A stretch of DNA of 57,898 bases from Patescibacteria group bacterium (GTDB lineage: Bacteria > Patescibacteriota > Minisyncoccia > Phycocordibacterales > JACZSL01). The stretch lies in NCBI GenBank assembly GCA_022561335.1, contig JADFRL010000002.1:1-57898 (forward strand), read 5' to 3'. A program made the position numbers and the translations under genes. Shown here one piece after another: positions 4,239 through 20,958 of the stretch. The stretch's first letter is position 1, and each line of letters opens with the position of its first letter. A model generated the notes under the pieces. The model was not told the origin of the DNA, ran no database searches, and saw only the letters and a list, made by a program, of their open reading frames with translations.

Positions 4239-4440
4239 AAAAAAAAAGAGTCGACACGCGCCGACTCATCGACATCATTGCTAGAATAAAGAGCAGGCGG
4301 ATACTGGCGTGCCCATTCTGATTGTCATCACCACCAATCATACTAGGACAGGAGAACTTGAAATAATTCGAGTGCTCCGAGCGCGCATCATCCTGGGAGA
4401 CCCGTCCCAGGAGGCGCAGCTCACACCAGCATCCAATATA
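4239..4440 (-). ncRNA. Candidate structured RNA with its own terminator
   Basis: Read on the minus strand, GGATGCTGGTGTG (4434-4422) pairs over 13 positions with CACGCCAGTATCC (4311-4299), using two G-U pairs. It encloses at least two further hairpins, CCTGGGA/TCCCAGG and TGATTG/CAATCA. The 3' side ends in GAGTCG/CGACTC (4267-4248) followed by nine T, a textbook terminator. No protein frame on this strand is persuasive. I do not find the conserved cores of RNase P RNA, tmRNA or SRP RNA, so the class is unknown. The 5' end is a guess; a TATAAT lies upstream at 4464-4459. This candidate fills most of the gene-free stretch 4222-4546. Confidence 0.45.
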
Positions 4441-4512
4441 ATTTATACTTTATTTATCATTATAAGTCGAGATGTAATTAGTCGAATTATCCCCTATATT
4501 AGAATAGCCTTC

Positions 4513-4540
4513 TTGAAACGGCGTAAAATGAGACTACAAT
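4513..4540 (+). promoter_or_regulatory. Promoter of murI, leaderless type
   Basis: TTGAAA (4513-4518) and TACAAT (4535-4540) are 16 bases apart, and the -10 box ends six bases before the murI ATG. The transcript would therefore start at or next to the start codon. Confidence 0.6.
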
Positions 4541-4546
4541 TTTAAT

Positions 4547-5401
4547 ATGAAGGAAACTGACATTCGGCGTTTCCCTGTGTATGGTGGGGGAGGATCAGTG
4601 GGGATTTTTGATTCGGGTTTTGGAGGACTCAGTATCTTGCGTGGTCTGGTTGATGTACTTCCACAGTACGACTATGTTTATTTTGGGGACACAGCTCGTA
4701 CGCCATATGGCACGCGCTCCAGTGAGGCTATATATGCATTTACCGAGCAGGCAATAGATTTTTTGTTTAATAAGGGATGTCACATTATCATTCTTGCGTG
4801 CAATACAGCATCGAGTGAAGCGTTGCGGAGACTTCAGCAGGAATATTTACCCCGTCATTTCCCCGATAGGAAGATACTCGGTGTCATCATCCCGTCCGCA
4901 GAGGAGGCAGTATCTGTTACGAAGAATAAGAAAATAGGAGTTATTGCGACAGCCGGAACCATAGCTTCCGGGGCGTTTGAGCGAGAACTGCAAAAACTCA
5001 ATCCTGAAATAATGGTTGTAGAAAAAGCTTGTCCACTTCTTGTTCCGCTTGTAGAGGCTGGGGAAGACGATCCTATTGTAACACAGCTTATTTTGTCGAA
5101 TTATCTTGATCCGCTGTTAAGTCAGCACATAGACACTCTCATATTAGGATGTACGCACTACGAGTTTTTAGTAAGAGATATTCAGTATATTGTAGGAGAC
5201 AATCTGAACATTATTACTCAGGGGAGAGTGCTTACCAAAAGTTTTAAAGACTATTTGAAGCGGCACTGTGAATTAGAGGGGAAGTTAGGGAAAAAATCAA
5301 AACTTAGTTTTTTTAGTACAGATCTTTCAGATAAGTTTACAGTACTTGGCAGTAAGTTTTTCGGAAGAACCATTATACCGGAGCATGTTCGGCTGGATTA
5401 A
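4547..5401 (+). CDS. murI: Glutamate racemase
   Basis: MurI converts L-glutamate to D-glutamate in the cytoplasm for peptidoglycan stem peptides. The 284-residue protein shows the family signatures in order: GIFDSGFGG (19-27), PYGTR (53-57), the catalytic cysteine C85 in ACNTAS and the second catalytic cysteine C202 in GCTHYE. Length is normal for the family, with a slightly long N-terminus before the first strand. The start at 4547 fits a -10 box six bases upstream. It stands alone between a minus-strand RNA candidate and tRNA-Ala, and shows that the cell makes or remodels its own wall. Confidence 0.95.
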   Translation: MKETDIRRFPVYGGGGSVGIFDSGFGGLSILRGLVDVLPQYDYVYFGDTARTPYGTRSSEAIYAFTEQAIDFLFNKGCHIIILACNTASSEALRRLQQEYLPRHFPDRKILGVIIPSAEEAVSVTKNKKIGVIATAGTIASGAFERELQKLNPEIMVVEKACPLLVPLVEAGEDDPIVTQLILSNYLDPLLSQHIDTLILGCTHYEFLVRDIQYIVGDNLNIITQGRVLTKSFKDYLKRHCELEGKLGKKSKLSFFSTDLSDKFTVLGSKFFGRTIIPEHVRLD

Positions 5402-5454
5402 GTGTTTCTTCGAAACTTATTTCACGGTTGCACTTATATTAAAAATAGTACCAT

Positions 5455-5525
5455 GGGCCTATAGTTTAATGGTAGAACGTATCTATGGCATAGATATGGT
5501 CCGGGTCCGATTCCCGGTAGGTCCA
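5455..5525 (+). tRNA. tRNA-Ala (anticodon GGC)
   Basis: Acceptor stem GGGCCTA pairs with TAGGTCC and contains the G3-U70 pair that identifies alanine tRNAs. The anticodon stem TATCT/AGATA encloses ATGGCAT, giving anticodon GGC; the T arm is CCGGG-TCCGATT-CCCGG. The discriminator is A and CCA is not encoded. Confidence 0.93.
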
Positions 5526-5562
5526 CCTAGCATTTGAGTGACGAATTCGTTACAATATCACC

Positions 5563-5811
5563 ATGGGAGTAGAACTAGGTAAAGTTATACATTGGTATGA
5601 CAAAATTAGCGTTGCGGTGGTTAAGCTCAATGCGCCGCTCAAAAAGGGAGACAGGATTGTTGTGAAGCGCGGTGAGGAGGAGTTCGAAGACACGATCACC
5701 TCTATTCAGATCGACCATAAAGATGTTGAGAGCGCAAAGAAGGGTGACGCTGCAGCCGTCAAACTCTCTCAGAAGGCTAAGGAGGGTTCGCTGGTTTGCG
5801 AAGCGGGATAA
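5563..5811 (+). CDS. Stand-alone EF-Tu domain-2-like beta-barrel protein
   Basis: This 82-residue protein matches the small beta-barrel of translation factors (EF-Tu domain 2): a GKVIHWYDKISVAVV strand pair, then LKKGDRIVV, and the QIDHKDVESAKKGDAAAVKL region resembling the conserved turn of this barrel. Stand-alone copies annotated as elongation-factor-like proteins occur widely in CPR bacteria and archaea; their role is unknown. TACAAT ends exactly six bases before the ATG, suggesting a leaderless message. There is no GTPase domain nearby, so this is a separate protein and not a fragment. Confidence 0.75.
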   Translation: MGVELGKVIHWYDKISVAVVKLNAPLKKGDRIVVKRGEEEFEDTITSIQIDHKDVESAKKGDAAAVKLSQKAKEGSLVCEAG

Positions 5812-5955
5812 GGGTTCGTACCAAAGTTTAAATAGGGCAAGCTGGTCTACACTATTCATTTTTTGATTGGTCTGTTGCTTATTTCCATCTTCGCCCGCTA
5901 CGGGGCTTCGATGGTGCGGCTGTATCTTTTCTATATACCATCCGATAAATAAGTA

Positions 5956-5984
5956 TTTACAAACTGGCCTTCGCTTCGTATAGT
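5956..5984 (+). promoter_or_regulatory. Promoter of the UPF0182 gene
   Basis: TTTACA (5956-5961) and TATAGT (5979-5984) are separated by 17 bases. The -10 box ends nine bases before the ATG at 5994, so the leader would be two or three bases or absent. Confidence 0.65.
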
Positions 5985-5993
5985 ATTACTATC

Positions 5994-8789
5994 ATGATGC
6001 AAAAACGTCTTGCTTTGTATGGTATCTACGGCCTGATAGCATTGTTTGTTTTTATCGCGCCGCGCTTTTTTCAACTGCTCACTGATTGGTACTGGTTTGG
6101 AGAAATCGGCTTTAGCAATATTTTTACCACCATACTTTTCACGAAAATTCTCTTGGGATTAGGGGTGGGTGCTCTGACCTTTTTTATTATCTACGGCAAT
6201 CTTTGGCTGGCTAGGCGGCTTGTAGCACCAAAGCCGCTGATTGTTCGCCTGCAAAACGGTTTGCAAGAAATAGATTTGGAGAGGTATATTAGTAAATTCT
6301 CCTTGGCCGTCTCGCTGTTTTTTGGATTTTTGACCGGTCTGTTCGGAGCGAGCAAATGGGAGACGGTACTGAAGTATTTTAACGCGGTGCCCTTTAACAC
6401 GGTCGATCCGATTTTTGGCCGTGATATTGGCTTTTACTTTTTTGATTTACCGTTTATTCAGTTTTTGGTCGGGTTTGGGTTTTGGCTCATTATTGTTTCT
6501 TTTATAGGAGCTTTCCTAAGCTACGTTGTACGGGGCGCTATTACTATAAAATCTTTATCCACCCCGTTAGAGGCCCTCTCCTCCTTTGGCAGAGCGGCAG
6601 CCGCCAAGGGCGGCTTGTCTCTAACGGGGTGGATGGAAAAGCCGGCCAAAGTTCACTTGTCAATCCTTGTCGCTTTTTTGTTTGTTTTAACTAGCTTCAA
6701 GATTTATGCCATAAAAATTCCCTCTCTGCTCTATAGCTCTACTGGACCGTTTACAGGTGCCAGCTTTACTGATATTAATGCTGTTTTACCGTTCTTGAAA
6801 ATACTTATTTTTGTTGCCATTATCGCAGCCGTGCTGACTGTGATAAATATTTTTAAAACAAATAACCGACTTCTCATTTTAGCTGTTAGTATTTATGCCG
6901 TAACTTCTATTTTGGGCGGCTCCGTATACCCTTTCTTCCTGCAAAGATTTGTGGTTTTGCCAAATGAGCTGGTTAAAGAAACCCCTTACATAGAGTACAA
7001 TATTGCGGCTACGCGAAAAGCATTTGCCTTGGATCAGGTGCAAGAGCGCGATCTGACAGGTGAGGCCACGCTAACCATATCTGATATCAATAACAACCGC
7101 TCTACCATTAAAAATGTGCGGCTCTGGGACCGCGAACCCTTGCTTGACACATTTGGTCAGCTTCAGGAAATTCGCACATACTATGATTTTATCTCTATTG
7201 ACAACGACCGCTATAACTTGAACGGCGACTACCGCCAGGTTTTGCTTTCTCCCAGAGAGCTTGATTCTGCGAGTCTTCCTCAGCGTACCTTTATCAACGA
7301 GCGTTTGACCTTTACGCATGGTTTCGGGCTTACTCTAAGTCCGGTTAATGAAGTAACGCCAGAGGGTCTGCCGGTGCTATTTTTAAAAGATCTGCCGCCT
7401 TCCTCCAGCATAGACTCGCTTAGAGTGAGCAGGCCGGAAATATACTACGGAGAGTTGGTCAACGATTGGGTTGTGGTCAACACACAAGCCCAAGAGTTCA
7501 ATTATCCATCTGGCGATAAAAATGTCTTTGCAAATTATGAAGGACGGGGGGGTGTTGAAATTAAATCAATTTTCCGCAAAGCGCTGTTTGCCCTGAAATT
7601 TAGGTCATTAAAAATTCTTTTGTCCAATGATATAACAGAAGAGTCAAGAATAATGTATTACCGCAATATTGAGGAGAGAGTCAAGCGGGTGTTGCCTTTT
7701 TTGAGTTTGGATGGTGACCCTTATATAGTTGTTACCAAAGAAGGTGATTTGAAATGGATTTATGACGCCTATACAACCTCAGACCGTTATCCGTATGCTG
7801 AGCGAATGAGAGATATGTTCGATTCCTTATCTAACCGACAGACAAGTTTGCCGGGCAAGAGCCTCAATTATATAAGGAATTCGGTTAAAGTGGTGATTAA
7901 CGCTTATGACGGCAGAATGGTATTTTATATTGCAGATGAAGACGATCCGATTATTAAAACCTACGCCAAGATTTTTGAGGATTCGTTTTTGCCGCTTGAG
8001 CAAATGGATGATGATCTGAAGGCTCATATTAGGTATCCAGAAGATTTATTTGTTTACCAAACGACACTTTACACGGTGTATCACATGGGTGAGGCGCAGA
8101 TTTTCTACAACAGAGAAGATCAGTGGCAGATTCCTGTCATTACAAGCGATGCACGGGCGGACCCCATGATGCGGCATATGATTATGAAACTGCCAGGCGA
8201 AGCCAAGGAAGAGTTTATCCTGATGATCCCGTTTACGCCTCGCGGCAAAGACAATCTCTCGGCATGGATGGTGGCGCGCAATGACGGAGAGTTTTATGGC
8301 CAGTTGGTAGTGTACCGTTTTCCCAAGCAAAAATTGGTCTTTGGACCCAAACAGATTACGAACCGTATCAATCAGGACACAGACATTTCCCAACAGATAT
8401 CTCTCTGGGATCAAAGAGGTTCTGAAGTAATTAGAGGAAGCCTTTTGGTAATTCCGATTGAAGAGTCGCTTATTTACGTTCAACCTATTTATCTGCGGGC
8501 TGAAGGCGGCAGGATTCCTGAACTTAAAAGAGTGATTGTGGCTTATGAAAACCGCATTGCCATGGAAAAAACTCTTGATTTAGCATTAGAGCGAGTGTTT
8601 GGCGGCCAAGTTGCAGTGGACGAAAAAGCGACCACGGCAGTTTTGGGCAAGCAAGCGATTAGCCAAGATTTAATCAAGCAAGCCAGAGATTATTTTGACC
8701 GGGCTATGTCTGCTCAGCGCCGCGGCGACTGGGCTTTGTATGGCGTAGAAATCAGAAAGCTGGGTGAGATATTTGAGAGCGTGAGGTAG
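5994..8789 (+). CDS. UPF0182 family integral membrane protein
   Basis: The 931-residue protein belongs to the UPF0182 (COG1615) family: about seven membrane helices in the first 325 residues, then a large soluble part with family features such as PYIEYNIAATRKAF, a GLPVLFLKDLPP segment and RPEIYYGEL. The function of the family is unknown; the soluble region is probably extracytoplasmic. The length is normal. A 16-bp perfect inverted repeat (6557-6572 and 6619-6634) lies in the coding frame and encodes about residues 188-214 in the loop after a membrane helix; it looks like an inserted palindromic element that kept the frame. The start has a second in-frame ATG directly behind it. Confidence 0.88.
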   Translation: MMQKRLALYGIYGLIALFVFIAPRFFQLLTDWYWFGEIGFSNIFTTILFTKILLGLGVGALTFFIIYGNLWLARRLVAPKPLIVRLQNGLQEIDLERYISKFSLAVSLFFGFLTGLFGASKWETVLKYFNAVPFNTVDPIFGRDIGFYFFDLPFIQFLVGFGFWLIIVSFIGAFLSYVVRGAITIKSLSTPLEALSSFGRAAAAKGGLSLTGWMEKPAKVHLSILVAFLFVLTSFKIYAIKIPSLLYSSTGPFTGASFTDINAVLPFLKILIFVAIIAAVLTVINIFKTNNRLLILAVSIYAVTSILGGSVYPFFLQRFVVLPNELVKETPYIEYNIAATRKAFALDQVQERDLTGEATLTISDINNNRSTIKNVRLWDREPLLDTFGQLQEIRTYYDFISIDNDRYNLNGDYRQVLLSPRELDSASLPQRTFINERLTFTHGFGLTLSPVNEVTPEGLPVLFLKDLPPSSSIDSLRVSRPEIYYGELVNDWVVVNTQAQEFNYPSGDKNVFANYEGRGGVEIKSIFRKALFALKFRSLKILLSNDITEESRIMYYRNIEERVKRVLPFLSLDGDPYIVVTKEGDLKWIYDAYTTSDRYPYAERMRDMFDSLSNRQTSLPGKSLNYIRNSVKVVINAYDGRMVFYIADEDDPIIKTYAKIFEDSFLPLEQMDDDLKAHIRYPEDLFVYQTTLYTVYHMGEAQIFYNREDQWQIPVITSDARADPMMRHMIMKLPGEAKEEFILMIPFTPRGKDNLSAWMVARNDGEFYGQLVVYRFPKQKLVFGPKQITNRINQDTDISQQISLWDQRGSEVIRGSLLVIPIEESLIYVQPIYLRAEGGRIPELKRVIVAYENRIAMEKTLDLALERVFGGQVAVDEKATTAVLGKQAISQDLIKQARDYFDRAMSAQRRGDWALYGVEIRKLGEIFESVR
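6557..6634. repeat. Palindromic repeat inside the UPF0182 coding sequence
   Basis: ATCCACCCCGTTAGAG (6557-6572) is exactly reverse-complementary to 6619-6634, with a nested GCCGCC-AAG-GGCGGC hairpin between them. The outer core CCCGTTAGAGGC recurs at 19676-19687, and its partial complement at 23182-23191. The 78-bp element adds no stop codon. Confidence 0.8.
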
Positions 8790-12503: not shown

Positions 12504-12770
12504 ATGAAAGATGTAGCTCTTGAAATGCTCACTTCTCCCGGCTGCCATAACTGTGCGATCTTTGCCGCATTTTGGGAAACTGAAAAGAGAAACTGGCCCA
12601 ATGTGACGTTTAAAGAAGTAAATATTACAGAGCCAGAAGGGCAGGAGTTGGCACAGAAACACATGATCATGGCTTCTCCGGGGATTATCATAAACGGAGA
12701 GCTATTCTCTACAGGCGGTGTCAATCAAAAGGAATTTTTAGAAAAGCTAAAGGAGCTTTCAGCAGAATAG
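12504..12770 (+). CDS. Thioredoxin-like protein with CHNC active site
   Basis: This 88-residue protein has a small thioredoxin/glutaredoxin-type fold: a strand leading into SPGCHNC (C14, C17), a helix, and the cis-proline region MASPGIIING (P59) followed by the final strand and helix. It lacks a signal peptide and should be cytoplasmic. The next gene, 34 bases downstream, starts with a CcdA/DsbD-like membrane domain that retains two redox cysteines, so this protein is the natural cytoplasmic electron donor for it. That pairing is inferred from order and chemistry. Confidence 0.8.
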   Translation: MKDVALEMLTSPGCHNCAIFAAFWETEKRNWPNVTFKEVNITEPEGQELAQKHMIMASPGIIINGELFSTGGVNQKEFLEKLKELSAE

Positions 12771-12804: not shown

Positions 12805-15333
12805 ATGGAAGAACACGTACATGAAGCGATGGGCACTGAACCAGAAGTAGATACAGGACAGCCAAGTGCCGATGACAAAAAAATTAGATTTCGTTTAGCA
12901 ATGACAGGATTTGTCCTGTTCATTATTTTTGTTATAGGCATCTTTTGGTTCCTATCCAATCCAGAAATGGGTGCTGGGCTCACACTTTCATTTATCGCAG
13001 GGCTTACCATGATATTTTTGCCGTGCACGCTTCCTATGGCGTTTGTCATCGTACCGATGACGCTCGGCAAGGCTCCGATGAAGGGCTTCCTCATGGCGCT
13101 ATTCTTTGGATTAGGACTTGCGATCACACTCTCTTTTTACGGCGTGTTCATTGCATTTATTGGAAAATTCCTGGGTCTAACCGCAGCAACACAGATTATG
13201 CTTATTGTGGGCGGCTCCGCCTCGCTATTTTTTGGAATTTCGGAAATAGGGCTTATTAAATTTCGTCTGCCGTCATATACCGGTAAATTTCCTGATTTTA
13301 TTCAAAAGCAAGGTGACTACATCAAAGTATTCCTTCTCGGACTTTTCTTGGGGAATGCTGGAGTCGGGTGTCCTAATCCTGCGTTTTACGTGCTCATGGG
13401 TTATATTGCTACCGTTGGGGACCTCTTTAATGGCTGGTTCCTAGGATTTGTTCACGGAGTTGGACGGGCAGTTCCGCTTATCTTTCTTGCGATCCTTGGA
13501 ATTCTTGGTATCAATGCGACAAGTAAAGTTGCCGGAAAGCAAGAAATTATTGAAAAATATATGGGGTGGGTACTTATATTTATCGGTGCTTTTATTATGA
13601 CATTCGGACTTTTTGGACACGACTGGTTTATTTCGTCAGGGTTTCATACCACATGGGAAAAGGTAGTTGTTGCGGTTGCAGGTGAACAATTTGGAGAAAA
13701 TATTCTTCAGCATAACCATAGACTGGTAGATATTAAGGGGTTCATCGAGTATGGAAATATGTTTTTCTTGGGGCTCGTAGGACTCATCATTGCATTATTT
13801 GCAAAATTCAATAAACCGAGTAAGAAATTTCTCACGAGGCTTCTCATACTCTATGCGGTTCTCGTACTTTCTATTGGTTATATGACCGGCTGGACGTTTA
13901 AGTTAAGCATCGATGTTACACCTCACGATAGTAGGGCGATCTCAGGGGAAGGGGAAGCTGTAGTGCCTTTTGGTCTTGACGGTGCTTTCGTACAAGATGA
14001 TGGAAAGGTAAGAACCGCAGATGGGGGTAATGCGGACGGCGCACATGTGATGCCTGACGGGACGGTAATGAGTGGAAGTGGAGCAGTGATCTCTGGAGCT
14101 CATGTCATGCCTGATGGCACCGTGATGGTAATGCAAAAGGTGAGTGCGTCTGTTATTTCGTCACTTCCCAAAAGAAGTCCAGCAGATCGAATTTCCGAGC
14201 TACCTTATGTCATGAAAGACGGTGTCAAGGAGTTCCGCCTCACGGTTGATGAAATTCAGTGGGAATACGAGCCGGGGCGGTACATTCATGCGTGGGCATA
14301 TAACGGTCAAATACCGGGCCCAACCATTCGTGCCACAGAAGGAGAAAAAGTGCGTGTCATAGTAAAGAACAACTTGCCTGACGCTACAACCATCCACTGG
14401 CACGGCCAAGCTATTAACTGGGAAGCAGATGGTGTTCCCAATCTTACACAAAAACCGATCGAGCCGGGTGAAGAGTTTGTTTATGAATTTTCACCAAAAC
14501 CAGAAGGAACGAAATGGTATCATTCACACGGGAATAATGAAAAAACAGTAGCACAACAAGTAGACATGGGCCTCTCAGGCGTGTTTATTATAGAGCCAAA
14601 AGTACCGACAGTTGAATATGACAGAGAATATATACTTCTTCTCGACGAATGGAATATTCTTCCCGGAGGTGTCAATCCGGCTATAGGACACGTGCACGGC
14701 GCCGCAACACCGGGAGCCGTTCCAGAATTCAATACCTTTACTATAAATGGACGCATCTTCCCCTACATTGATCCGATCAAAGTTAAAGAGGGAGAAAAAG
14801 TGCTGATTCGAATTGTAAATGGGGGAACCTCTGCATTTCACCCCATGCATACGCATGGCCATGATTTCGAACTCGTAGCACTTGACGGCAATCCGGTGCC
14901 GAAAGCCGCAATACAAAAGCGAAATGTATATACAATACACCCCGGTGAAACTGCCGACTTCTTACTCACTGCAGACAATCCCGGCAATTGGCTTTTCCAC
15001 TGCCACCAGGCACATCATGCAGCAGCCGGTATGGTCATGCTTATTGAATACGAGGGGTTTGATGGTCCAACAACGGATGATCTTCGAAAAATGAAAGCGG
15101 AAGCAGCAGATATTGCGGGGATACATATCATGGCGGATGGAACCGTTATGCTTGGGAGTGGCGAAGCAGTGGAGGGCGCCGAGGTTACAAGCGACGGAAT
15201 GATCAAGCTTCCAGGTGGTAAAATGGTAACTCCGGTCATGGATATGCGTGAGGGTGGATCTATGGATGAAATAAAGATGGAAACTGACGATCATGAACAC
15301 GCGTCCGAAATACCAGATGACCATACACATTGA
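12805..15333 (+). CDS. CcdA-like membrane domain fused to a two-domain multicopper oxidase
   Basis: 842 residues in three parts. Residues 30-370 form a CcdA/DsbD-type bundle with C74 in FLPCTLP and C189 in GVGCPNP, the positions of the thiol-relay cysteines. Residues 375-460 form a linker with two copies of GAHVMPDGTVM (412-422, 431-441). Residues 465-755 form a laccase-like two-domain oxidase with all copper ligands visible: H531/H533, H573/H575, H679/H682/H684, and H732-C733-H734, H738 and M743 (type 1 site in the second domain). The tail (771-842) carries another HIMADGTVM unit and a His/Asp-rich end. The oxidase should face outwards. Substrate unknown: Cu(I), phenols or other donors. Confidence 0.88.
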   Translation: MEEHVHEAMGTEPEVDTGQPSADDKKIRFRLAMTGFVLFIIFVIGIFWFLSNPEMGAGLTLSFIAGLTMIFLPCTLPMAFVIVPMTLGKAPMKGFLMALFFGLGLAITLSFYGVFIAFIGKFLGLTAATQIMLIVGGSASLFFGISEIGLIKFRLPSYTGKFPDFIQKQGDYIKVFLLGLFLGNAGVGCPNPAFYVLMGYIATVGDLFNGWFLGFVHGVGRAVPLIFLAILGILGINATSKVAGKQEIIEKYMGWVLIFIGAFIMTFGLFGHDWFISSGFHTTWEKVVVAVAGEQFGENILQHNHRLVDIKGFIEYGNMFFLGLVGLIIALFAKFNKPSKKFLTRLLILYAVLVLSIGYMTGWTFKLSIDVTPHDSRAISGEGEAVVPFGLDGAFVQDDGKVRTADGGNADGAHVMPDGTVMSGSGAVISGAHVMPDGTVMVMQKVSASVISSLPKRSPADRISELPYVMKDGVKEFRLTVDEIQWEYEPGRYIHAWAYNGQIPGPTIRATEGEKVRVIVKNNLPDATTIHWHGQAINWEADGVPNLTQKPIEPGEEFVYEFSPKPEGTKWYHSHGNNEKTVAQQVDMGLSGVFIIEPKVPTVEYDREYILLLDEWNILPGGVNPAIGHVHGAATPGAVPEFNTFTINGRIFPYIDPIKVKEGEKVLIRIVNGGTSAFHPMHTHGHDFELVALDGNPVPKAAIQKRNVYTIHPGETADFLLTADNPGNWLFHCHQAHHAAAGMVMLIEYEGFDGPTTDDLRKMKAEAADIAGIHIMADGTVMLGSGEAVEGAEVTSDGMIKLPGGKMVTPVMDMREGGSMDEIKMETDDHEHASEIPDDHTH

Positions 15334-15375: not shown

Positions 15376-15681
15376 ATGAATAAACGTCTAATCATTGGAA
15401 TTGTAATAGCCCTCATTGTTGTTGTTGGAATACTGATGTTTGGAAATAATGAGACAGAAATGCAATCGTATGAAGGAATACATATTATGGCGAACGGAAC
15501 CGTAATGCTTCCAAATGGCGAAGAGGTGGAAGGTGCTGAGGTTACAGAGGACGGAATGATCAAGCTTCCGAACGGTGCAATCATAGAGCCAGTAATGGAT
15601 TTAAGAAAAGGAGGGTCTATGGGTGAAATGAAGATGGAAAATGATGAGGACATGCCGATGGAAATGGAAGGGGATGGATAA
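15376..15681 (+). CDS. Membrane-anchored His/Met-repeat protein, putative copper binder
   Basis: The 101-residue protein has one N-terminal membrane helix (about 4-22). The rest repeats the C-terminal module of the preceding oxidase: GIHIMANGTVM, GAEVTEDGMIKLPNG and a PVMDLRKGGSM segment, followed by a Met/Asp/Glu-rich tail (MKMENDEDMPMEMEGDG). Over about 57 residues the two modules are nearly identical in pattern, so one derives from the other. Paired His and Met side chains and Met-rich tails are typical of extracytoplasmic Cu(I) carriers, so copper delivery to or from the oxidase is a reasonable inference. I know no named family for it. Confidence 0.75.
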   Translation: MNKRLIIGIVIALIVVVGILMFGNNETEMQSYEGIHIMANGTVMLPNGEEVEGAEVTEDGMIKLPNGAIIEPVMDLRKGGSMGEMKMENDEDMPMEMEGDG

Positions 15682-15685
15682 GAGC

Positions 15686-16036
15686 ATGGGTAAAAAGTCA
15701 AAAATCAAAATGACACGTCAAATGCCAAAGCTGTTTTTATTTGGGGTGATTACCGTATTGGTACTGCTCTTTGTACTTGCTGTACCAACTTTAGGGTATG
15801 CTGACGAGGGTCATACAGAAAATGTTCCTCACAACGAAACTTCACAATTACCTGTACTACCTATTGAAGAAGATGATGATTTTGTCGGAGACAGGCATGC
15901 CGACCATACGCATGCAATAACAGTAAAAGAACCTTGGTATCAGGATGGGCAGTGGTGGATATTTTTTATTATATCCCTTTTTCTTATAGCACTTTTTTCG
16001 TTTGGAGTTTATAGATATTTGCAGGTTAAGGATTGA
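15686..16036 (+). CDS. Secreted His-rich small protein with C-terminal membrane helix
   Basis: I take the ATG at 15686 (an ATG at 15674 overlaps the previous stop). The 116-residue product has a long basic N-terminus, a signal sequence with a plausible cleavage after GYA (residue 39), an acidic and His-bearing outer segment (DEGHTENVPHNE, DRHADHTH) and a membrane helix at about 89-109. The clustered histidines and the place between a multicopper oxidase and a cupredoxin suggest metal binding on the cell surface. I do not recognise a family. Confidence 0.65.
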   Translation: MGKKSKIKMTRQMPKLFLFGVITVLVLLFVLAVPTLGYADEGHTENVPHNETSQLPVLPIEEDDDFVGDRHADHTHAITVKEPWYQDGQWWIFFIISLFLIALFSFGVYRYLQVKD

Positions 16037-16157: not shown

Positions 16158-16907
16158 ATGAACAAATATATAATAATTGTAATAGTTCTCGTGCTCATAA
16201 TTGCAAGTGGCGCTGTATATCGGGCAAAATTTGTACCAGAAGTAGAAAAGGCAGTGGTTACCGGTATAGAACGTTCTATATCTATTGTGACATTTGAAAA
16301 TACATGGGCGTTTGAACCGGAGTTTATTGAAGCTGATCAAGGTGACAAGATAATCTTTACCATAACCAATCGAGACGATTACGATCACGGGTTTGCCATT
16401 GATGCATTCGGTATTTCACAACGAATGCCGGCAAAAAGCACCATTGTTATTGAATTTGTTGTGACACAAGCAGGTGATTTCCCCTACTACTGCTCTGTGT
16501 CCTGTGGATCCGGTCTTGTCGATGGTGAAAAGAGAGGTCACTTTAATCAAGTCGGACGGCTTCATGTAAAGAGCATAATTAGCGAGACGTCTGATTTTGG
16601 AAAAACAGTTTCCGACGAAGATTTTGCAAAATCTGCACGGCATGCATCCGCTGTTGCACCAGCTAATGAGAAAGCAGAAGAGCTTGGATATGATGTGTCA
16701 AATTTGGAGATTCTCTTTGACGAGGATAATACACTGTGGGGAATCTATGTTGATTCAGAAGACATCGATGTGAAAGAATTAAATCTTTCGGAAGAGCAGC
16801 AGTACCAATCAATTCTCTATCGGGACAACGATTCAAATCCTGTATTGTGGATCTTTATCGATAGTTTTGAGGGGGAGGTAATTAATGTATTTGAAGTAGG
16901 AGAATAA
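16158..16907 (+). CDS. Membrane-anchored cupredoxin with CuA-like cysteine pair
   Basis: The 249-residue protein has an N-terminal membrane helix (4-22) and a cupredoxin barrel (about 40-138). Candidate copper ligands are H77 (YDHGFAI), C112 and C116 in YYCSVSCG and H128 in RGHF. The CxxxC spacing is that of the binuclear CuA site of cytochrome oxidase subunit II and nitrous-oxide reductase, but the axial methionine expected shortly after the last histidine is not evident, and an insertion separates the cysteines from H128. The C-terminal 110 residues are a separate domain I cannot identify. It may pass electrons to the oxidase two genes upstream. Confidence 0.78.
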   Translation: MNKYIIIVIVLVLIIASGAVYRAKFVPEVEKAVVTGIERSISIVTFENTWAFEPEFIEADQGDKIIFTITNRDDYDHGFAIDAFGISQRMPAKSTIVIEFVVTQAGDFPYYCSVSCGSGLVDGEKRGHFNQVGRLHVKSIISETSDFGKTVSDEDFAKSARHASAVAPANEKAEELGYDVSNLEILFDEDNTLWGIYVDSEDIDVKELNLSEEQQYQSILYRDNDSNPVLWIFIDSFEGEVINVFEVGE

Positions 16908-16982: not shown

Positions 16983-19421
16983 ATGACTAAACTTGTACTG
17001 AAAGTTAAAGGAATGCACTGCGCTTCTTGCTCGATACTTATTGATAAGTTGCTTTCAAAACAGGAGGGAGTAATAAGCGTAAAGACAAATTATAGTGCTA
17101 GTAAAACGGCACTTGAGTTTGATGAGTCAAAAATAACGCTTGAAGAGATCGATGCGTTTGTAAATAAGCTTGGCTATGATGTCATTCGACCAGATGAAGA
17201 AAAAGGAACCATTGAAGAAGAAGAGGTAATAGAAGAGAAACAAATTAAGCTGGCAAAACGGCGTGTCATTGCGTCATTTGTTATTGCCTCTCCCATCATC
17301 GCTTACTACATGCTCATACACATGTTCAATATTCCCCATGTGCATGAGGTTTTTGCTCTTCTTAAACTCTTTGGAATCAATATAGATACTACGCTCCGAA
17401 TTGATTTGAACTATGTCTATTGGATATTGAGTACTCCCATTCAGTTTATTATCGGGTGGCCTTTTTATCGCAACGCTTACACTGCAGTTCGTGTGGGAGC
17501 GGCGAATATGGATGTACTTGTGGTGCTGGGAACTTCAGCTGCGTACTTTTATAGCATGTTGGGGTTTCTCTGGTTTAATATTGACCATCCTTTCTGGGAA
17601 AGCTCCGCGGCTCTTATTTCATTCATCTTGCTGGGGCGTTATATTGAGGTGCTTGCAAAAGGTCGTGCATCAAGTGCTATTAAAGAGCTCTTAAAATTAG
17701 AGGCTAAAGAAGCTCATGTTGAGCGGGATGGGCATGAGATAACTGTTCCTCTTGATGAGCTTACCGAGGGAGACATTGTCATTGTGAAGCCTGGAGAAAA
17801 GATTCCTGTTGACGGTATTATTATAGAAGGCGTGTCACACATTGATGAAAAAGTGGTAACGGGGGAATCGTTTCCTGTTAAAAAAGAGGTGGGCGCTGAG
17901 GTTATAGGCGCCACGGTTAATCAGGAAGGACGTTTCAAATTCAAAGCGACAAAAGTCGGGAAGGACACCCTCTTGTATCAAATCATTACCATGGTTGAAG
18001 AAGCGCAGGCTAGCCGTGCGCCTGTTCAGGACCTTGTCGACAAGATTAGCGAATACTTTGTTCCAGCTGTTGTTGTTTTATCTGTTTTAGTCTTTGCCGG
18101 CTGGGTATTTGTTGCAGGATTGCCATTTAGAACCGGGCTTTTGAGGATGATTGCCGTACTTGTTATTTCGTGTCCCTGCGCCATGGGACTTGCGACACCG
18201 ACTGCTCTTGTTATCGGTATTGGTCGTGCTGCCAAGTTTGGGATTATTTTAAAGGGTGGAGAGGCACTTGAGAAAGCCTATAGAGTAACCTCAATAATAT
18301 TTGATAAGACAGGGACACTGACCATCGGAAAACCGGTTGTCACCGACTTTGTAATGCTTAGAGAAGATATTTCAAAGGACGACGCTTTATATATGGCCGC
18401 GTCAGCAGAAATGGGATCGGAGCACCCGCTCGCACGTGCTATCATCGAAAAAGGCCAAGAGCAAGGAGATCTTGCAGATCCGAAGGATTTCAAGGCAGTT
18501 CAGGGTATGGGTATTCAGGCAGTTATTAAGCGAGGTAACGATAGAACGGTTGATATCGGCAATCTTACTTACATGGGCAAGCTCAACATAGATGTTACAG
18601 CATACACTGAGCAGCTTGAAAAACTGCAGTATGAGGCAAAGACAGTGGTCTTTATGCTTGTGGATGGTAAGCCAGCAGCCCTCATTGCAATGGCAGATAC
18701 TCTAAAACCGTATGCTAAAGAGGCGATCGACGAATTGAAAAAAATGGGCAAGGAAATCATTATGATTACGGGTGATAATATAAAAACCGCTGAAGCCATT
18801 GGTCGTGAGGTGGGAATTGATAGGGTTCTCGCTGAAGTGCTTCCTCAAGATAAGGCTCTGCAAGTAAAGAAATTACAAGACGAGGGGAAAAAGGTTGCCA
18901 TGGTGGGAGATGGTATAAATGACTCACCCGCACTTGCGCAATCCGATCTCGGTATAGCTATTGGTTCAGGAACTGACGTGGCGATTGAAACAGGAGATGT
19001 TGTTCTTGTGAAGGATGATCTTCGGGATGTGGTCACCGCGCTTCAACTATCTAGGAAGACGATTAAAAAGATATGGCAGAATCTTTTCTGGGCGTTTTTC
19101 TATAACGTTGCCGCAATTCCAATTGCAGGAGGTGCGCATCTTTTGATTACACAATCATCACTGGGTATTGCAGCAGCATGGGTAGTTGCCATTCAATCCA
19201 AATTTGCAGGAGCAGGGCAAATCTTCTTCAATTTATCACAGGCAACACTTCGGCCAGAAATTGCCGGCTTTGCCATGGCATTTAGCTCAGTTTCAGTTGT
19301 TCTCAATTCATTGCTGCTTAAGCGTTATGTACCTCCTATTGAAAAGAAGATTGCCGATAGTGAAGATAAAGGCAAAAGAGGAGGAAGTATGGCTGAATCA
19401 GTAGTAAAACCTGCCACGTAG
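16983..19421 (+). CDS. copA: Copper-translocating P1B-type ATPase
   Basis: The 812-residue pump has an N-terminal heavy-metal-associated domain with GMHCASC (C13, C16), eight expected membrane helices, the actuator motif TGES, the transmembrane copper site CPC (about 397-399), the phosphorylated aspartate in DKTGT (about 441), the SEHPLA motif of the nucleotide domain and GDGIND near 641-646. CPC with the HP motif is the CopA (P1B-1) signature, so it should transport Cu(I) out of the cytoplasm. A chaperone gene follows 27 bases later. Confidence 0.95.
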
Positions 19422-20734: not shown

Positions 20735-20958
20735 AAAAAGACCCTGGGTCCTCTCTCCATCCGAGGATGGTTTGAGGTCCCAGGGCCCGTGTCGGTTTAA
20801 ATCGACGTGGTTTCTGTCTTACGACTTTCACCAGTTCGGCGCGTTTGTAAAATCGGCTAGGTGCAAACCCGTACCCACGTTAAATCGTTCGATCTTGCGA
20901 TAGAACAATTCGCAGTGGGGAGTCGAAATTCTTAGCGTGCCAAACAGCACAGTGCTAA
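20733..20958 (-). ncRNA. Candidate stand-alone structured RNA with promoter and terminator
   Basis: On the minus strand TTGACA (20992-20987) and TATCCT (20970-20965) are 16 bases apart. About 225 bases later a strong hairpin (GAGGTCCCAGGG at 20774-20785 with 20742-20753, one mismatch) is followed by seven T, so a transcript of about 226 bases is predicted. Inside it I see GTGC/GCAC, GCGA/TCGC, ACGTGG/CCACGT and a GTC-GTAA-GAC hairpin flanked by GGTGAAA and AGAAACC, an internal loop rich in G-A pairs. No reading frame on that strand is convincing, and I do not recognise RNase P, tmRNA, 6S or SRP cores. It occupies most of the gene-free stretch 20735-21137; the rest is AT-rich and featureless to me. 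Confidence 0.5.

Follow-up and report, generated by a model that had tools for sequence, protein, structure and literature searches.

A CcdA-type membrane core fused to a multicopper oxidase in a copper gene cluster of a small-genome bacterium

What does a CcdA-type thiol relay do on the same polypeptide as a copper oxidase, in a cell type generally thought to lack respiration? The question arises from the window, a 57,898-nucleotide stretch of DNA from a Patescibacteria group bacterium. Its source genome is a 667-kb draft, bacterial by its SSU rRNA (1395 bits) and 89.7% complete; sampled members of the phylum mostly have genomes of 0.4-1.4 Mb. A first-pass annotation proposed that one protein in the window links cytoplasmic thiol electrons to reduction of external O2. 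We examined the protein, its neighbors, and its relatives in a sample of about 1,180 small-genome bacterial genomes.

Both halves of the protein belong to known families. Its architecture, the recurrence of that architecture, and the surrounding copper cluster are apparently undescribed – as the annotation had claimed for the architecture, we found no published description within the open-licence literature.

Organization of the fusion protein

The gene starts at an ATG and continues in one frame through 842 codons with no internal stop. The product can be divided as follows (coordinates in the window, strand, feature).

12805..15333, +, 842-aa fusion: CcdA/DsbD_TM core joined by a linker to a two-domain multicopper oxidase, then a repeat tail at the C-terminus
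12868..13902, +, residues 22-366, the membrane core; nine helices predicted from hydropathy, charge pattern, and AlphaFold
13024..13026, +, C74 in an LPCTLP motif; conserved in 66/67 relatives
13369..13371, +, C189 in a GVGCPNP motif; conserved in 65/68 relatives
13903..14148, +, linker, residues 367-448; DGTVMxGSG repeats, also found before standalone oxidase L062
14149..15063, +, two-domain multicopper oxidase; T1 in domain 2, trinuclear ligands complete
15001..15003, +, C733, T1 copper ligand; sole cysteine of the oxidase part
15064..15330, +, C-terminal tail, ending DDHTH; repeats common to the next gene

Profile searches recovered both halves within this one frame, bearing out the annotation's claim of a single polypeptide. 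The DsbD_TM profile (PF02683) matched residues 60-230 with 44.6 bits, above its curated cut-off of 27.1, and Pfam placed Cu-oxidase_3 at residues 482-599 (135.7 bits) and Cu-oxidase_2 at residues 644-747 (94.5 bits), likewise above cut-off. With profile scores far above the cut-offs, we rejected a chance motif.

The protein has three cysteines in total, at positions 74, 189, and 733. C74 and C189 represent the cysteine pair that CcdA/DsbD_TM proteins carry in the first and fourth core helices, and they align with the CcdA cysteines of two ordinary CcdA-type proteins from the same genome. Cysteines at these positions are also kept in fused forms of the core, and the annotation's description of them as CcdA-type is supported. 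We infer a topology with the N-terminus inside and the C-terminus outside the membrane, which would place the oxidase outside. The AlphaFold model, built as a monomer, has moderate confidence (mean pLDDT 71.8, pTM 0.45), and its cysteine-to-T1 copper distances are not reliable.

The core resembles CcdA/DsbD_TM proteins in its profile score, in the position of its two cysteines, and in the cytosolic thioredoxin partner that adjoins it. It differs from them in having three additional helices, one at the N-terminal and two at the C-terminal end, and in carrying an extracellular copper domain where a thioredoxin-fold partner would stand. At 26% to the ordinary CcdA of its own genome, it belongs to a distinct subfamily. 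Neither the periplasmic alpha domain nor the thioredoxin-fold gamma domain of full-length ScsB/DsbD was found in the 842 residues. Searching solved structures by sequence with the core gave no match, and the fold searches were dominated by matches to the oxidase part. A second copy of the core (56%) is present in the same genome at G000:C18:21837-22445 (L089:7829-8446), where it is cut by the contig end.

The oxidase contains all of the T1, T2, and T3 ligands that the annotation had attributed to it: T1 ligands (two histidines, a cysteine, and a methionine) and eight trinuclear-site histidines are accounted for by H531/H533, H573/H575, H679/H682/H684, H732-C733-H734, H738, and M743. The two cupredoxin domains of the multicopper oxidase fold were confirmed, with 3g5w (Z 29.2) and 2zwn (Z 28.8) among the fold matches. 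In fold and complete trinuclear ligand set the domain thus resembles two-domain multicopper oxidases and small laccases, but here it is joined to a nine-helix membrane core. Its T1 cysteine belongs to domain 2; in the 3g5w alignment, by contrast, the corresponding place has a cysteine in domain 1 only. A nitrite reductase identity for the fusion was rejected (TIGR02376, 65 bits against a cut-off of 296.3).

Linker residues 367-411 are predicted to be disordered (pLDDT <50). The tail repeat (IHIMADGTVMLGSGE..) at 15064-15330 is related to the linker repeats, matches DUF6799 weakly, and is duplicated at 15457-15651 with 66% identity over 65 residues. Because the linker is disordered in the model and the only oxidase cysteine is the T1 ligand, an intramolecular thiol-to-O2 path is not visible. 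The structural picture anticipated by the annotation therefore stands in part – nine predicted helices with the oxidase outside – and lacks support in the electron path from the cysteines to the oxidase.

Relatives of the fusion and exchange of its partner domain

According to the annotation, relatives with separate genes would indicate that a frameshift or misassembly had joined two neighbors. Such relatives exist: the core occurs alone at L060 and many other loci, and the oxidase occurs alone at L062, L063, and L085. They lead us to regard the fusion as derived, but not as an artifact. The same two-part fusion is encoded in one frame at L061 (716 aa, 59%/57% identity) and at L117 (761 aa, 43%/53% identity), in separate genomes from families other than that of the window, and a fourth genome encodes a version with a NirK-type partner at L118. 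Composition is even across the joint between core and oxidase. We therefore reject misassembly or a frameshift, to which we assign a negligible probability; by these sequence comparisons, the fusion is real.

Ahead of the oxidase, the sequence is very similar to the N-terminus of standalone oxidase L062, DGTVMxGSG repeats included, so the fusion probably arose when a gene of this kind was joined behind the core. Scanning 85,000 species with the fusion recovered multicopper oxidases of Bacillota only and no fusion, which is weak evidence as the scan seeds on short exact peptides. A search of viral contigs and plasmids found nothing.

An oxidase is a minority partner of the core. Among fused loci, 23 carry a cysteine-free, histidine-rich double Ig-like domain that we name HxHP, three (including the window) carry a multicopper oxidase, and one carries NirK. 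HxHP consists of two repeats, each with invariant histidines and an HxHP motif; it lacks cysteine in 27/28 cases and has no known redox centre. Its model comprises two Ig-like beta-sandwich domains (pLDDT 85.6), for which a fold search gave generic Ig-like matches (best Z 9.4, tied with unrelated rows) and no functional lead. An HxHP profile had no match in the incomplete genome of the window, in a search run without a positive control; this absence apparently fits replacement of an earlier HxHP partner at the locus.

The NirK fusion (L118:5252-7429, - strand) joins the CcdA-type core to a copper nitrite reductase of the NirK/AniA type and adjoins a CopA-type ATPase. It passes TIGR02376 with 323.2 bits against 296.3, and its nearest solved proteins are AniA-type. 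Neither a thioredoxin nor a cupredoxin was detected near the L117 or the L118 fusion, the latter lying on a 9.9-kb contig.

In a tree of the core alone, every fusion to a copper enzyme is sister to HxHP-fused proteins. The core of the window pairs with L059 (100/99), L061 with L119/L121 (100/100), L117 with L130 (99/83), and L118 with L136/L140 (96/83). Trees holding the three oxidase fusions together were rejected (AU p 2.9e-6), as were trees holding together the window and L061, in tests whose groups were chosen after the tree was seen. Given these sister relationships and the rejection of a common origin for the oxidase fusions, the core phylogeny indicates that the partner domain is swapped about four times.

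Further domain combinations were observed around these genes. At L066, one cluster encodes a CopD-like/cupredoxin/beta-propeller fusion (4302-6494) and a CuA-like cupredoxin fused N-terminally to the oxidase (6897-8306). At L085:1976-2977 (- strand), immediately upstream of the standalone oxidase of the same group, a VKOR domain and a CopD-like domain are joined in one fusion.

The copper gene cluster and its limits

The genes flanking the fusion are as follows.

12504..12770, +, cytosolic thioredoxin-like protein, 88 aa, CHNC motif; Thioredoxin_3, 37.1 bits
15376..15681, +, 101-aa membrane-anchored copy of the tail repeat; weak DUF6799
15641..16036, +, 131-aa signal/anchor protein; 41% to L059 residues 693-750
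16158..16907, +, CuA-like cupredoxin with N-terminal anchor and Cx3C...H-x2-Q loop; Cupredoxin_1
16983..19421, +, Cu(I) P-type ATPase of the CopA type, with a CPC motif and an HMA domain at its N-terminus; TIGR01511
19794..20294, +, CopD/DUF2214-like membrane protein, 166 aa; 57% homologue in syntenic L059
20291..20734, +, 147-aa membrane protein of no assigned function; 31%, kept beside the CopD-like gene in L059

The CxxC thioredoxin-like gene that the annotation placed just upstream is indeed present, shows no signal peptide, and has a CxxC-bearing homologue adjoining the core in most relatives. Downstream, the 131-aa protein matches only the C-terminal tail of the HxHP-fused protein of L059 and is therefore probably what is left of the HxHP domain that was replaced; L060 has the same arrangement. 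The nearest solved proteins to the cupredoxin are nitrosocyanin and the CuA domains of ba3 oxidase and NosZ. From the CuA consensus (Cx3C, H-x2-M, and an upstream histidine) it has the Cx3C, the loop histidine, and the upstream histidine; glutamine replaces the methionine, which is found in some relatives, and the loop has an insertion. The ATPase scores 584.6 bits with TIGR01511 (cut-off 397), and relatives of the CopD-like protein match CopD (L085) and DUF2214 (L066), both below cut-off.

These neighbors follow an order that recurs among relatives: thioredoxin, sometimes a DoxX-like membrane protein, core, CuA-like cupredoxin with conserved Cx3C and H-x2-Q/M, CopA-type Cu-ATPase, and sometimes a CopD-like protein. 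The window has the full set except the DoxX-like gene. Within six ORFs of the 67 core genes, we counted a thioredoxin at least 41 times, a CopA-like ATPase at least 37 times, and a cupredoxin at least 30 times – lower bounds, since many contigs end early. The Cu-ATPase, CuA-like cupredoxin, and CopD-like protein, as annotated from sequence, point to copper handling.

A terminator-like hairpin with a T-rich tail (20787-20810, +) directly follows the last gene of the cluster and is a plausible operon end, while a promoter scan gave signal at the level of shuffled sequence. Elsewhere in the window, a large UPF0182 membrane protein is encoded at 5994-8789 (952.6 bits).

The core is not confined to this setting. 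Of the 37 loci without a link to HxHP or an oxidase, 23 show neither CopA nor a cupredoxin nearby, so the core also serves elsewhere. In some members of family f217 (L080, L082, L083), the core has a charged insert and has lost one or both CcdA cysteines, which implies a non-thiol role at least there; the thioredoxin next door, where present, retains its CxxC. Eleven loci, including L086:2796-4229 and L064:7838-9259, encode a cysteine-rich protein, usually a few genes from a standalone core. It has a conserved YRPCCxNxT..DCNHGMAxLGLLELMASQG region, and some versions end in GGGCGV. A Pfam scan of a single member, that of L086, gave no match. This protein may be a thiol acceptor near the standalone core.

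Copper handling, electron outlet, or anchor

The best explanation, held tentatively and at slightly less than an even chance, is that the locus encodes a thioredoxin-fed CcdA-type core for external copper handling and copper-site maturation, with a swappable tethered copper module. Cytosolic thioredoxin would reduce the core at C74/C189, and the core would carry reducing equivalents to the outer membrane face – a direction argued from the conservation of the core cysteines and of the CxxC thioredoxin. Outside, the most likely use of these equivalents would be to hold the thiols of copper sites in reduced form for loading with metal, with the Cx3C pair of the neighboring CuA-like cupredoxin as the best candidate target. 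CopA would export Cu(I), and the most likely reaction of the oxidase would be O2-dependent oxidation of that Cu(I) or of some other small reductant. The fused domain cannot be the general thiol acceptor, since the oxidase has only its T1 ligand and HxHP, almost never containing cysteine, leaves its core unable to pass thiols to it.

We favor copper handling and maturation because the cupredoxin offers a Cx3C pair outside the membrane, because TlpA provides a precedent, and because CopA and a multicopper oxidase together form the pattern of a cuprous oxidase. TlpA reduces ScoI and CoxB ahead of copper loading (PMC6696091), and the DsbD-like ScsB keeps ScsC reduced, with both proteins binding Cu(I) (PMC8900818). 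Like these systems, the cluster links a cytosol-fed thiol reductant to copper proteins; it differs from them in lacking an outside thioredoxin-fold domain, in having its copper module fused, and in that no Sco gene was found in the genome. When it accompanies CopA, a multicopper oxidase is most familiar as a cuprous oxidase, with CueO receiving Cu(I) from CopA and oxidizing it (PMC7558416). The cluster shares with CueO/PcoA systems a Cu-ATPase and a multicopper oxidase, though its oxidase is two-domain, membrane-fused, and accompanied by a thioredoxin, a CcdA core, and a CuA-like cupredoxin. Against copper handling, a cuprous oxidase would not obviously need fusion to a thiol reductant, and the missing detection of thioredoxin and cupredoxin beside L117 and L118, the cysteine loss in f217, and the 23/37 loci fit it poorly.

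The electron outlet of the first-pass annotation, extended here by the cupredoxin as a possible carrier, would instead run from NADPH through thioredoxin reductase and thioredoxin to C74/C189, and on, by way of the CuA-like cupredoxin or direct contact, to T1, the trinuclear site, and O2. We consider such a thiol-driven terminal reductase unlikely. Dithiol exchange passes two electrons to another disulfide, and we know of no CcdA-type protein that reduces T1 copper; both points count against it. Thiol electrons reaching O2 are not supported by an oxidase with no cysteine beyond its T1 ligand, by the disordered linker, or by a majority partner that is neither an enzyme nor a cysteine protein. 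The neighborhoods of L117 and L118 showed no cupredoxin, and the thiol-to-T1 step is hypothetical. On the other side, both enzymes placed on the core, laccase-type and NirK, are T1-fed terminal reductases that were joined to it in separate events; the L118 partner in particular speaks in favor of the annotation's outlet, and the cluster of the window supplies a CuA-like cupredoxin. For related bacteria, a pathway from a cupredoxin to NirK has been put forward (PMC5581439), and there are known cases of electron donors fused to copper nitrite reductases (PMC9358711). L118 likewise joins its copper enzyme to a possible electron source, but that source is a membrane thiol-relay domain instead of a cytochrome c or azurin. 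A search confined to the heme-copper type found no oxidase subunit I (COX1) in the 89.7%-complete genome; to this extent the annotation's picture of a cell without respiration holds, and the absence favors an alternative outlet. Respiration-like functions are known in this radiation but rare (PMC5581439, PMC5220378), the latter describing an electron transport chain. We also regard as improbable a general-socket reading, in which the core would serve thiol-driven reduction by whichever external copper enzyme is attached – of O2 here, of nitrite through the NirK type of L118.

A role in copper transport is doubtful as well. The core cysteines would bind Cu(I) and hand it on to the fused domain, either through the membrane or along it, with thioredoxin only keeping them reduced. 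All fused partners seen are known or likely metal-binding domains, CopA and CopD-like proteins are neighbors, and Cu(I) binding has precedents in DsbD-family ScsB (PMC8900818) and in the DsbD of an ammonia-oxidizing archaeon, suggested to bind Cu(I) for transfer to chaperones or import (PMC7785015). The gene for the latter is up-regulated together with multicopper oxidases under copper limitation (PMC7785015). Yet Cu(I) export is already carried out by CopA, and the cysteines of the core are the usual CcdA pair, with no additional methionine or histidine pair close to invariance standing out inside its helices. Less probable still is that the core is a mere membrane anchor, and the fusion a neutral by-product of operon neighbors. 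The simple N-terminal anchor of standalone L062 indicates that the oxidase needs an anchor anyway, and a disordered linker would suit one, but the conservation of the cysteines in fused forms and about four swaps of different copper domains onto the same core argue for more than anchoring.

The locus belongs to a conserved copper cluster found across many small-genome bacteria and built on a CcdA-type core with a repeatedly exchanged outside partner. The recurrent swaps on one core amount to a natural experiment on how thiol relays and copper enzymes are connected. If the general-socket reading were true, the core would provide a minimal electron outlet, without quinones or cytochromes, in cells lacking a heme-copper oxidase gene. 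The swaps also make it directly testable how small-genome bacteria that live by fermentation cope with oxygen and copper.
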